Shown in pieces: positions 2,949 through 10,675 of a stretch of 33,839 nt of DNA. The DNA lies in NCBI GenBank assembly GCA_029856445.1, contig JAHQWY010000004.1, positions 1-33,839 of the forward strand. Reading direction: 5' to 3'. This stretch comes from Promethearchaeia archaeon (GTDB taxonomy: Archaea; Asgardarchaeota; Lokiarchaeia; Sigyniarchaeales; SOKP01). Under the pieces are notes generated by a model that saw nothing but the letters and a program-made list of their open reading frames with translations, was not told the origin of the DNA and made no database searches. Both the position numbers and the translations under genes were made by a program. The number at the start of each line of letters is the position of its first letter. The stretch's first letter is position 1.

Positions 2949-4859
2949 TTACTTCAGTAAAACTGTTTCCAAATTCACAGGACTTTTTGTTTGTTTCCTT
3001 AGTTTTTTATGTATCATCGTTGATAAGCTTACACATTTAGAAGCTTCTCCATGATTTACTATTATGGATTTAGGTCTTGGCTGAATTCGTCTTAAAAACT
3101 GTGAGATTTGACTACGTGAGGAATGTCCTGAAAACCCTTCAAGCGTAAAAGTTTTTAGATTTATTTTAACAAGTTGAGTACGTCCTTTCGCATCTACATA
3201 AGTAAACTCTCGAAATCCCTTTTGAATTCTTGAGCCTAAAGTTCCGTTTACTTGATAGGAAACAAAAATAAGAGTATTTTTAGGATCATTTGCCATTTCT
3301 CTTAAATATTGTACAGATGGGCCACCTATAAGCATTCCACTTGTGGCTAAAATAATACAAGGTCCACCTTTAATTATATCTAATCGTTCATCTTGCGCCG
3401 AGACTGTTTCAAAATAATCACTTAAAAAGGGATTTTTTCCTTGATGTAAAATTTTCTCTCTTAAATCGCTACTTAAAAAGTCTGGGTTGGCTGTATGTAT
3501 TGCTGTAGCTTCACTAATTAATCCATCGATGAAAATTGGAACTTTATCAATAAATCCTTTATCAATATATTCTTCAAGTACAATTAAAAGCTCTTGAGCA
3601 CGTCCAACTGCAAGAACTGGAACTAAAACTTTTCCTCCTCTTTTAAGGGTAGAATTTAAAATCTGTTTCAATTCCTTTTCAGATTCTTGTCTACTTGGGA
3701 TACGATCTTGAGGTCCGCCATATGTTGATTCTATTAATAAGCTTTCAACTCTAGGAAACTTTACTGTCGCTTTTTCTAATAATCGAGTTTTTTGAAATTT
3801 AAAATCTCCTGTATATACAAAATTATAATCTCCCTTACCAAAATGCAAATGAATCATCGATGAACCTAGAATATGACCAGAATTATGAAGTGTTAATTTA
3901 ATATCGGGAGCAATATCAGTTACCTTTCCCCATGAAAGCGGTATAGTATGAAGAACCGTTTGTTTAACATCTCTTTTAGAATATGGTAAAGGTGTTCCTT
4001 CCTTTTCACATATTTGAATAAAATCTAGTTGCAACATTGTGGCTAAATTACGTGTAGGTAGAGTACAATAAACTGGACCACGATACCCATATTTATAGAG
4101 AAAAGGAACAAGACCACAATGATCTAGATGGGCATGAGATATTATAATAGCATCAAGATCTCTTAAAGAGAATTCGGGTATATCGAAAAATGGAAATTTA
4201 TCATTAGGATTCCCTATATTTAATCCTACATCTAATAAGACACTACTATCTCTCGTCTGCATTAATATGCAAGACCGTCCTACTTCACGAAAACCACCTA
4301 ATGCTGTTAATCTTATATTTAAATCCTTAAAAAGGGGTGGTCTATGAATTCTTTTACCAATTTCTAATAGTATATCCTTTTGGGTTTGTCTTTCTTTTTT
4401 AAGCATACCTCTAATTAATTGAATAGTTCTAGATGTAAGTGGAGGTGTCCTGATGGTTTTGGGTTGCCAAAATGTATTCGATCGGATTTCTTTTAAATTA
4501 ATTCCCTTTTTGCCAATTACAAGCCCAGGTTTTCCGGATTCAATTATTACCTCACCGCGTGTGTGATCAAACTCAATTGCGCTAATTTCTGCATCTTCAT
4601 TGACCAAATTTCTTATATATTCTTCAGTTTCCGCAGGATCCTTACGCTTGTCTACATTCCAACGAAAAACCACACGTTTTCTCATGGTTTTAGCTAAGTC
4701 TTTCAGAATTGTAGAGCTTTCAATAGCATCTACATCTGAATTTTCAGAATACACAGCAATTTCAGGTCCCTCAAATTCAATTTTATTAACAATTATTTCA
4801 GGTGGAAGGTTATTAATAATTTCTTCTCTAATTCGTAAAAGTTCTCCTTCAAAACTCAT
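2949..4859 (-). CDS. KH-domain/metallo-beta-lactamase/beta-CASP ribonuclease aCPSF1
   Basis: N-terminal KH region (GKPGLVIGKKGINLKEI), HAHLDHCG metallo-beta-lactamase motif, GHILGSSMIHLHFG, LLIESTYGG, SGHSSRSQI and C-terminal VNHGE. Confidence 0.95.
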   Translation of the reverse strand: MSFEGELLRIREEIINNLPPEIIVNKIEFEGPEIAVYSENSDVDAIESSTILKDLAKTMRKRVVFRWNVDKRKDPAETEEYIRNLVNEDAEISAIEFDHTRGEVIIESGKPGLVIGKKGINLKEIRSNTFWQPKTIRTPPLTSRTIQLIRGMLKKERQTQKDILLEIGKRIHRPPLFKDLNIRLTALGGFREVGRSCILMQTRDSSVLLDVGLNIGNPNDKFPFFDIPEFSLRDLDAIIISHAHLDHCGLVPFLYKYGYRGPVYCTLPTRNLATMLQLDFIQICEKEGTPLPYSKRDVKQTVLHTIPLSWGKVTDIAPDIKLTLHNSGHILGSSMIHLHFGKGDYNFVYTGDFKFQKTRLLEKATVKFPRVESLLIESTYGGPQDRIPSRQESEKELKQILNSTLKRGGKVLVPVLAVGRAQELLIVLEEYIDKGFIDKVPIFIDGLISEATAIHTANPDFLSSDLREKILHQGKNPFLSDYFETVSAQDERLDIIKGGPCIILATSGMLIGGPSVQYLREMANDPKNTLIFVSYQVNGTLGSRIQKGFREFTYVDAKGRTQLVKINLKTFTLEGFSGHSSRSQISQFLRRIQPRPKSIIVNHGEASKCVSLSTMIHKKLRKQTKSPVNLETVLLK

Positions 4860-5266: not shown

Positions 5267-5899
5267 ATGAGTAAACTAAAAATTGGGGCTATTGCTAGCG
5301 GATCTGGATCAAATTTTGAAAGCATTGTTCAGTCATGTGAAGACGGTATTTTGAAAGAAAAAGCCACCGTAGAAGTTTTAATTTGTAATAAAGCAGGAGC
5401 ATATTGTATGGAACGAGCTAAAAACCACAATATTCCTTATTTTTTAATTGAATCAGATAAACATGAGGGAACAAGAGAAGAATTTGACCAAAAAATGATT
5501 GAAGTATTAGATCGGCATAATTGTGAACTAATAGTACTAGTAGGGTATATGCGTTTTGTTAGTGAATTGTTTATCAATCATTTTAAAGGAAATATTATGA
5601 ATATACATCCTGCCCTCTTACCTAGTTTTAAAGGAATGCATGCACATGAGGATGCTTTAAAATATGGGGTCAAAGTATCGGGAGTTACAGTACATTTTGT
5701 TGATATTCATGAAGATCATGGCCCAATCATTATCCAGAAAGCAGTCCCAGTTTTTGATACAGACACTAAAGAGACTTTAGGGGCAAGAATTCTAAAATGG
5801 GAACATAAAGCTTTTCCAAAAGCAATTGAACTTTTCTGTGATAGACGGTTACACGTTGATGGGCGGATTGTTAGAATAGATGGGCAAGTAAATTTATAA
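5267..5899 (+). CDS. purN: Phosphoribosylglycinamide formyltransferase
   Basis: ASGSGSNFESI, LVGYMRF, NIHPALLPSFKGMHAHEDAL, GVTVHFVDIHEDHGPII. Confidence 0.93.
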   Translation: MSKLKIGAIASGSGSNFESIVQSCEDGILKEKATVEVLICNKAGAYCMERAKNHNIPYFLIESDKHEGTREEFDQKMIEVLDRHNCELIVLVGYMRFVSELFINHFKGNIMNIHPALLPSFKGMHAHEDALKYGVKVSGVTVHFVDIHEDHGPIIIQKAVPVFDTDTKETLGARILKWEHKAFPKAIELFCDRRLHVDGRIVRIDGQVNL

Positions 5900-5917
5900 A
5901 TTTTTTCATTAAATAAA

Positions 5918-6017
5918 GGGAAATGATTTTAATGCGCTTTCTGACCCAACGGATTAAAATAGTTTTTGAACTGTTTTCAAAATGACGAAGATCTTGAGTA
6001 GCGAGAAATCATTTCCC
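5918..6017. ncRNA. Candidate structured RNA or intergenic stem-loop of unknown class
   Basis: Perfect 12-bp inverted repeat GGGAAATGATTT (5918-5929) / AAATCATTTCCC (6006-6017), internal CGCT/AGCG pairing, and apical hairpin TTTTGAA-CTGTT-TTCAAAA. Confidence 0.5.
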
Positions 6018-6116
6018 TCCTTTTATGAGTTATCCTTCGAAATAAGTAAACGCTAAAGTTTTAATCAAATTAATTATAATCATTAATAAATATTTAGATA
6101 CCTGTTATATTTGAGT

Positions 6117-8306
6117 ATGCCTCGTAGAAAGGAAATCACTGAAATACTTAATTTAATGGAAAAAACTCAAAATATTCGCAACACTGCTTTAGCTGGTCAT
6201 ATAGATCATGGTAAAACCACGCTTTCTGATTCATTACTAAGTGAAGCAGGTTTTTTATCGCCCGATCTAGCAGGTGAAGCACGTGCTTTAGATTATCTTG
6301 AGGAAGAACAGCAACGCGGAATAACTATGAAATCTGCTAATATTTCATTATACTATGAGAAATCACTTGAAGGTCATGAGCCTTTTGTTATTAATTTAGT
6401 TGATACTCCCGGTCATTTAGATTTTAGTGGTAAGGTAACTCGAGCTCTAAGACTTATTGATGGAGTTGTAATTGTTGTCGATGCTGTTGAAGAAATAATT
6501 ACTCAATCCGAGACAGTTATTAAACAAGCATTACAAGAAGGAGTAAAGCCAGTCCTTTTTATCAATAAAGTTGATAGGTTAATTAGAGAATTAAGACTTT
6601 CAGATGATGAGATCAAGGAAAAGTATATTAGAATAATAAAATCCTTTAATAAGTTAATTGATCGATTTGCTGATCCTCCATTTAATAAGAAGTGGAAGGT
6701 GTCACCATTATCTGGAAACGTTGCTTTTGGATCAGCGCTTCATAAATGGGGATTCACTCTAAATATTTTAGAAAAATCTGATTTAACTTTTAAAGATATT
6801 AGAGAAAGATATAAAAAGGACACGTACACAAAAGAAAGTTATTCAGACTTAACTCAATATTTTCCGATTCATAAAGCAATATTAGAAATGGTTGTAGACC
6901 ATTTACCAAATCCAATTGAAGCTCAAAAATATAGAATAGGAAAAATATGGGATGGAGATCTAAATTCTGATTTAGGAAAAGCGATGATTAACTGTGATCC
7001 TGATGGGCCATTAATTATCTGTTTAAGTAAAGTGCAAGCCGATAAACATGGTCTAGTTGCTACAGGAAGAATATTTTGTGGGAGTTGTGCTAAAAAAAGT
7101 GAAATTTTTCTTATAAATGAGAATAATTTTGAAACGATTCAAAGAATTGCTATTTTTATGGGGCAAAGAAGAGAACAAGTTGATAAAATCCCCGTGGGTA
7201 ATATTGTAGCAATTGAGGGTTTGAAACTTATTAGAAGTGGTGAAACCATCATTGATAGTAATCATATTAATGGTATGGTGCCATTTGAAAGTGTTAAGTA
7301 CGTAACTACTCCAGTAGTGACTGTTTCGATTGAACCAGAATATCTTAGAGATTTGGATAGAATGAAAGAATTAATTGAGAATATATTAATAGAAGATCCA
7401 AATCTAAAATTTGAGATCAATGAGGAAACAGGAGAATTCTTATTATCTGGAATGGGTCCTCTTCATCTTGAAGTCACAGCTAACGAGATAGGAAAGAGAG
7501 GTGTAAATATTACTGTATCGGATCCAAGACCCGTCTTTAAAGAATCTTGTCGACATAACTCTTCTTCTATAGAAGTAAAATCTTCTGAAAGTAAAAATAT
7601 TTTAAAACTAAGTGTAGAAAGATTAGACAAGAAAACAGTCAGATTTTTCCAAAATATTGATTACAGAACAATCAAACCTTTTAATGTTTTAAAAGAGGTC
7701 TTAAAGGAGAATACAGGTTTAAGCAATAAAGAGGCTGAAAATTTTTGGATATGTGATGATGATCAAAATATAATAATATACGATGTAGGTAATGATTTAG
7801 ATGAATCGTATAAAAATGCAATAATTGAAATATTTAAAAAAATAAAATTAAGTGGACCGTTATGTAACGAGAAACTTGCCGAACTAAAAATAAGAATTGA
7901 GGATTTATTTATTGATACTACTCTACAAGATAGCGTTTTTAATGATTTATCTATTATGTTTTATGAAGCAATAAAAAAAGGATTAATGGAGGCAGAATTA
8001 ATTCTATTAGAACCGATTTATCATACGATAATACAGCTTCCTCCTGATTATATTAAAAATACTGTCTCATTACTTTCAAAATATTCTGCAAAAATTAAGA
8101 GTATTGATCAAGAAAAGGAATACCAAGCGATTATTGAAATTCTTTTATCCGTCCGTAATTCTATAAAATTTGCTGAAGACATACGAAGTTCGACTTCTGG
8201 AAGAGCTTTTTGGCAAAATGAGTTCCATGCATTCATGGAGGTCCCGAAACATGAATCTCAACGAATTATTGAAAGTATAAAATTTTTAAAAGGATTAACT
8301 TGGTAA
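6117..8306 (+). CDS. EF-2 paralogue (aEF-2p-like) without diphthamide motif
   Basis: AGHIDHGKTTLSD P-loop, DTPGHLDF, NKVDR, LSGMGPLHLEV and SGRAFWQNEFHAF are EF-2 hallmarks. The domain IV position of the diphthamide HRGPAQ loop reads IDTTLQDSVFNDLSIM. The ATG at 6117 is preferred over the TTG at 6111. Confidence 0.93.
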   Translation: MPRRKEITEILNLMEKTQNIRNTALAGHIDHGKTTLSDSLLSEAGFLSPDLAGEARALDYLEEEQQRGITMKSANISLYYEKSLEGHEPFVINLVDTPGHLDFSGKVTRALRLIDGVVIVVDAVEEIITQSETVIKQALQEGVKPVLFINKVDRLIRELRLSDDEIKEKYIRIIKSFNKLIDRFADPPFNKKWKVSPLSGNVAFGSALHKWGFTLNILEKSDLTFKDIRERYKKDTYTKESYSDLTQYFPIHKAILEMVVDHLPNPIEAQKYRIGKIWDGDLNSDLGKAMINCDPDGPLIICLSKVQADKHGLVATGRIFCGSCAKKSEIFLINENNFETIQRIAIFMGQRREQVDKIPVGNIVAIEGLKLIRSGETIIDSNHINGMVPFESVKYVTTPVVTVSIEPEYLRDLDRMKELIENILIEDPNLKFEINEETGEFLLSGMGPLHLEVTANEIGKRGVNITVSDPRPVFKESCRHNSSSIEVKSSESKNILKLSVERLDKKTVRFFQNIDYRTIKPFNVLKEVLKENTGLSNKEAENFWICDDDQNIIIYDVGNDLDESYKNAIIEIFKKIKLSGPLCNEKLAELKIRIEDLFIDTTLQDSVFNDLSIMFYEAIKKGLMEAELILLEPIYHTIIQLPPDYIKNTVSLLSKYSAKIKSIDQEKEYQAIIEILLSVRNSIKFAEDIRSSTSGRAFWQNEFHAFMEVPKHESQRIIESIKFLKGLTW

Positions 8307-10604: not shown

Positions 10605-10675
10605 TGCGCCCGCCGGGAATTGAACCCGGGACGCTGGCTTGGGAAGCCAGCATATTACCACTATACTACGAGCGC
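10605..10675 (-). tRNA. tRNA-Gly(CCC)
   Basis: Reverse complement GCGCTCGTAGTATAGTGGTAATATGCTGGCTTCCCAAGCCAGCGTCCCGGGTTCAATTCCCGGCGGGCGCA; complete cloverleaf, anticodon CCC. Confidence 0.96.

Follow-up and report, generated by a model that had tools for sequence, protein, structure and literature searches.

The question raised by this locus is what an elongation factor 2 (EF-2) homologue without the diphthamide loop does in an Asgard archaeon. The window, i.e., the whole stretch of 33,839 nucleotides that was analysed, comes from a draft genome bin (505 contigs, 94% completeness, 6.4% contamination). The open reading frame extends from 6111 to 8306 on the forward strand and encodes 731 residues from a TTG codon or 729 from the ATG at 6117; its orthologues start at a Met that matches the latter (MPRRKEI...), and residues are numbered from it here. 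On the evidence below, the protein is almost certainly a full-length GTPase of the EF-2 family and the Lokiarchaeal orthologue of the second Asgard EF-2, EF-2p.

All five G motifs and the SGRAFW motif are intact, and the original prediction was right on this point. It had also described a domain IV tip without the canonical diphthamide loop, and the alignment agrees: conventional archaeal EF-2 reads LHEDPVHRGPAQI and the window EF-2p reads FIDTTLQDSVFNDL, with Asp605 under the diphthamide His. There is no His in residues 586–625 of the protein, and no conserved His aligns in the loop. The coordinates given for the tip (7889–7960) were a few bases off and out of frame, the string being encoded at 7896–7961. 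The ending at KGLTW without the usual tail was correctly recognized; the protein stops two residues after KGL, whereas conventional EF-2 continues for roughly 12. In a profile search the match to TIGR00490 (aEF-2) is full-length and scores 654.6 bits, under the equivalog cut-off of 738.45 bits, which the canonical paralogues of its relatives (class B, see below) do not reach either. Every Pfam EF-2 domain was found, domain IV barely above its cut-off. An AlphaFold2 model generated from a 27-sequence alignment has a pLDDT of 84 and a pTM of 0.74, and domain IV is folded in it. The best matches of the model among solved structures are archaeal EF-2s; Snu114 chains, too, are matched at significant scores.

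Table 1 Features of the window, and insertions in the EF-2 genes of relatives.
Feature	Position	Strand	Genomes or loci	Remark
FttA/aCPSF1 (KH, metallo-beta-lactamase, beta-CASP)	2949..4859	-		Divergent conserved neighbour
purN-like formyltransferase	5267..5899	+		Upstream of EF-2p; conserved neighbour within family f1 only
EF-2p coding sequence	6117..8306	+		729 aa from ATG 6117; TTG at 6111 also possible
G1/P-loop GHIDHGKT	6195..6218	+		Intact; first residue A to G relative to other EF-2s
G2/switch I RGIT	6315..6326	+		Intact
G3/switch II DTPGH, including catalytic His	6402..6416	+		Intact, uninterrupted; intron site in some relatives
G4 NKVD	6564..6575	+		Intact
Domain IV tip region IEDLFIDTTLQDSVFNDLSIMF	7896..7961	+		Residues 594–615; without diphthamide loop
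Codon GAT (Asp605)	7929..7931	+		At diphthamide His position, from alignment
Domain V motif SGRAFW	8196..8213	+		Intact
Insertion before IDHGKTT, P-loop			G007, G013, G018	Class B
Insertion inside DHG/KTT			G021	Class B
Insertion at MTDSD/DEEQ, switch I			G001, G006, G007, G009, G011, G017, G022, G146, G148	Class B
Insertion two codons before MTDSD/DEEQ site			G026, G030	Class B
Canonical EF-2 genes with insertions			L084, L085, L088, L092, L093, L099, L125, L126, L127, L129, L130, L131, L167, L168	
Insertion at DTPGH/V			G053, G054; L110, L111	EF-2p-type genes
Insertion at DTPGH/V			G047, G057; L051, L052	Conventional EF-2

The closest loci all belong to MAGs of Candidatus Lokiarchaeota and provide 15 orthologues with 66–84% identity in the best segments. 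All of these likewise lack the tip and end in a short tail, which, together with the purifying selection described below, rules out chance or sequencing error. Gene order is the same in most of these loci (HD-domain phosphohydrolase, 4Fe-4S protein, FttA/aCPSF1, purN, EF-2p). The adjacency of purN and EF-2p (5267–8306 in the window), with a gap of about 200–260 bases, is kept in most loci of family f1 and was not found outside this family. A link between this adjacency and the PurH–EF2 complex was considered and rejected, since the adjacency is confined in this way and the neighbour is PurN-like, not PurH. The window also carries genes for tRNA-Gln (ctg) at 35–109 and tRNA-Gly (ccc) at 10605–10675, both on the minus strand.

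Conventional archaeal EF-2s (Sulfolobus, PDB entry 8hl1; Thermococcus; Methanoperedens, PDB entry 6u45) share the fold, G motifs, domains I–V and an SGRAFW-type motif with the window EF-2p. The latter is only about 40% identical to them, lacks the HxDxxHRG tip and the C-terminal tail, and falls below the TIGR00490 cut-off. From the Asgard EF-2p of Narrowe et al. (2018, GBE 10:2380), as that work is summarized in two later papers (PMC10307638, PMC9887622), nothing essential differs: it is the same second EF-2, with the diphthamide residues missing and no dph genes, and the window gene is a further Lokiarchaeal member.

The phylogeny places the window protein with EF-2p. In a quick tree (LG+G4) built from 67 sequences without eukaryotes, the EF-2p-type proteins (class A) form one side of a branch with an SH-aLRT support of 96, and class B, the canonical paralogues, form one side of another with a support of 100. 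Class A spans many Asgard families, and its tips range from half-decayed (HKNPELRDSSQI in family f13) to unrecognizable. In class B the tip His persists within HxDPxHT, and conventional EF-2 (HEDPxHRGPAQ) is found in Asgard genomes that have dph genes. The class B proteins occur in the same genomes and belong to the same family as EF-2p, but are only about 30–34% identical to it, keep their own tip His as HEDPRHT and have a longer C-terminal tail. In four EF-2p proteins from order-level relatives (L114, L115, L138 and L124) domain IV contains some 25–35 extra residues, which are rich in lysine and arginine in L114.

The presence of two EF-2s is associated with the loss of diphthamide synthesis. 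Dph1/2 was detected in 22 of 228 Asgard genomes, and two or more matches to EF-2 domains IV–V were found in 1 of these 22 compared with 132 of the 206 dph-negative genomes (Fisher p = 3.6e-8, uncorrected for phylogeny, with incomplete bins depressing the dph-negative figure). Dph5 shows the same picture over 58 relatives. Both Dph1/2 and Dph5 are absent from the genome of the window, and positive controls were detected in four archaea; such an absence in a single MAG can mean incompleteness, but the pattern persists over hundreds. The tip, the tree and the absence of dph genes thus all support the original assignment to the reported EF-2p type without a diphthamide site. The survey agrees with the literature on Asgard EF-2p. 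Archaea without dph often have a second EF-2 that lacks key residues (PMC10307638, citing Narrowe 2018), and two EF-2 orthologues were already present in the last Asgard ancestor (PMC9887622, citing Narrowe 2018). The finding therefore belongs to a known family, for which the survey of 228 genomes sharpens the link between the loss of diphthamide synthesis and two EF-2s: EF-2p is an ancient EF-2 paralogue that is retained beside canonical EF-2 in Asgard archaea lacking diphthamide.

Two observations concern the distribution of dph genes. Beyond families f18 and f19, Dph1/2 was detected in G057, G130 and G132 (f10), G134–G136 (f22) and G058 (f11); a 2023 paper reports dph genes among Asgard archaea only in Hodarchaeales (PMC10307638), and these occurrences may reflect new lineages, taxonomy or misbinning. 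G047 (L052, L101, L103), assigned to the same order, has dph genes and a conventional EF-2 that falls in the tree with the EF-2 of another family; its contamination of 9% suggests a mixed bin.

The original prediction proposed to search this genome for a canonical EF-2, and on this point the outcome is divided. No second EF-2 was found in the bin with its 505 contigs and 94% completeness, although most relatives carry both copies, including the single-contig genomes G004 and G009. In relatives, about 22 kb separate EF-1A from the class B EF-2 (MVKVKN...), which lies behind aIF5B. The contig of the bin that carries EF-1A (C119) follows the gene order of G002 and G010 until it ends ahead of aIF5B; contig C96 carries the gene order on and ends inside aIF5B. 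The gene that lies downstream of EF-2 in relatives is on contig C415, with the match starting from base 728. Because, by synteny, the canonical EF-2 locus would fall between C96 and C415, an assembly gap is the best explanation for its absence from the bin.

EF-2p is under purifying selection. Between neighbours, dN/dS is 0.07–0.14 overall, 0.05–0.11 in domains I–III and 0.10–0.40 in domain IV; the tip by itself has too few residues for a reliable estimate. Where a genome has both paralogues, the divergence of class A relative to class B increases in the order domain III (1.17), G (1.37), V (1.51), II (1.62), IV (1.76) and tip (2.71). EF-2 domains can be assigned to a side facing the 30S subunit and a side facing the 50S subunit; going by the divergence ratios, the 30S-facing parts of EF-2p are the most relaxed. 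A similar comparison was made at 114 universal positions, defined by a conservation of at least 90% in class B and likewise in conventional EF-2. Lokiarchaeal EF-2p has lost 9 of 13 of these in domain IV and 11 of 101 in the remainder (Fisher p = 1e-5), i.e., 5 of 71 in the G domain, mostly by conservative changes, 0 of 8 in domain II, 1 of 8 in domain III and 5 of 14 in domain V. The GTPase motifs are intact across EF-2p as a group. The tip is the least constrained part, with no universal His or Asp kept.

These analyses show that the GTPase centre and the five-domain fold have been retained and that the domain IV tip is degenerate. The residue analysis thereby separates the part given up, the decoding-centre contacts, from the part kept, the GTPase, and makes it a testable question whether EF-2p works on the large subunit. 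Our preferred reading, which we hold tentatively and would not yet call probable, is that EF-2p is a ribosome-directed GTPase freed of decoding-centre work that acts in large-subunit tasks, most plausibly the release of aIF6. EF-2p would still dock on the large subunit at its GTPase-associated centre (sarcin–ricin loop and stalk) and hydrolyse GTP; without the tip it would make no usual contacts in the decoding centre and would not be a routine translocase. Elongation would be carried out by class B. The housekeeping translocase role fits this canonical paralogue, which has retained the tip His and whose gene clusters with those of EF-1A and aIF5B. Freed from elongation, EF-2p would most likely take on one of the large-subunit jobs that EF-2 also does in archaea with a single copy. 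The most plausible is the release of aIF6 from newly made or recycled 50S subunits, together with their quality control, comparable to the part of eukaryotic EFL1. The single-copy EF-2 of Sulfolobus frees aIF6 from the 50S subunit, and archaea lack EFL1 (PMC8024482). Since this activity of EF-2 is known and requires docking on the large subunit rather than the tip, which we infer to be dispensable for it, a role in maturation or recycling is favoured.

Several results count against a large-subunit role: (i) The EF-2p loci include no neighbouring genes that hint at ribosome assembly. (ii) The losses in domain V indicate that large-subunit contacts are not fully kept. (iii) No specific sequence affinity or length likeness to EFL1 was found. 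Codon bias compared with EF-1A gave no expression signal, and canonical EF-2 ranked lowest. EFL1 is also an EF-2-derived GTPase and the proposed likeness in IF6 release would be one of function, given that EFL1 has about 1120 residues compared with 729 and that EF-2p shows no specific affinity to it. A stronger version is doubtful at present: after diphthamide loss, the role of archaeal EF-2 in aIF6 release and maturation would have passed to EF-2p as a GTPase devoted to the large subunit, and Asgard archaea would thus have arrived, independently of eukaryotic EFL1, at the same division of labour a second time.

Other roles were weighed against the same evidence. EF-2p could be an auxiliary translocase that carries out elongation without diphthamide on special mRNAs, on stalled ribosomes or under stress. 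Its five-domain architecture is whole, domain IV is a folded unit, SGRAFW is kept and all domains are under purifying selection, and bacteria retain EF-G paralogues, some of them for special conditions. However, the tip, which acts in the decoding centre, is precisely the part that is least constrained and has lost every universal His and Asp, while the other copy keeps its tip nearly unchanged, and we consider this role somewhat unlikely. The PurH and aEF2 complex that dimerises 50S subunits in Methanosarcina acetivorans (PMC13324472) raises the prospect of a dormancy factor parked on inactive 50S or 70S ribosomes. PDB entry 9ou7 is among the closest structures to the EF-2p model, and at nearly every locus in family f1 a gene for a purine-pathway formyltransferase precedes EF-2p at a distance of about 200 bases. 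This role is nevertheless unlikely, given that the neighbour resembles PurN rather than PurH, that the adjacency does not extend beyond f1, and that the GTPase motifs, which are intact and highly conserved, suggest a protein that is active and does not merely block.

Orthology to a eukaryotic EF-2 paralogue is highly improbable. Both EFL1 and Snu114 also lack diphthamide, and the matches of the model to Snu114 chains are significant, but the score ratios to eEF2 (about 0.63 for EFL1 and 0.69 for Snu114) are close to those of Thermococcus EF-2 (0.58 and 0.65), and the corresponding PDB chains have 1120 and 972 residues. It is scarcely credible that EF-2p is the only EF-2 of the organism or a decaying duplicate. 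The lack of a second copy in the bin and the degenerate tip would fit either, but the canonical locus is expected in an assembly gap with a contig end on either side, and close relatives, the two single-contig genomes among them, have both copies. A pseudogene is rejected by a dN/dS of about 0.1 and by the spread of the group across many families.

The comparison with relatives also revealed probable introns in EF-2 genes. In at least 14 Lokiarchaeal genomes, the class B gene contains an in-frame stop within a short insertion at a GTPase motif (Table 1), and in-frame translation of the GTPase motifs in this core translation gene would require that the insertions be removed. The insertions are 30 bases long in class B and 29–33 in the others, and most have in-frame stops. 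Most of the insertions that were folded form a central helix of 4 bp with 3-base bulges on opposite strands, the bulge–helix–bulge signature of archaeal tRNA introns. In the cases checked, the conserved protein is recovered by cutting after the second of the three bulge bases, with the exact junction ambiguous or hand-fitted for G021 and G057. Four class B segments have fold z-scores in the range of -3.6 to -4.9, the G053 segment has one of -1.97 and an intronless homologue one of +1.65. Over eight related sequences, pairing is 94% compared with 26–47% for slid partners, and two pairs have changed on both sides. The splicing endonuclease family PF01974 was found in all 11 genomes tested. The control gene EF-1A contains no insertion in the genomes checked, the stops listed beside it lying outside the gene, and the window EF-2p itself has no insertion of this kind. 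Judging from sequence and predicted folding, the insertions are probably mRNA introns that are spliced by the tRNA endonuclease.

This matters because, as of 2009, experimentally confirmed introns in archaeal protein genes were limited to cbf5 (PMC2738675). The literature searched contained no report of introns in EF-2, which does not in itself prove novelty; this by-product is possibly more novel than EF-2p itself. The DTPGH/V position carries an insertion in two EF-2 lineages (L110 and L111; L051 and L052), through either shared ancestry or repeated insertion. One canonical EF-2 gene, L125 in G007, has two insertions, one at the P-loop and one at switch I.
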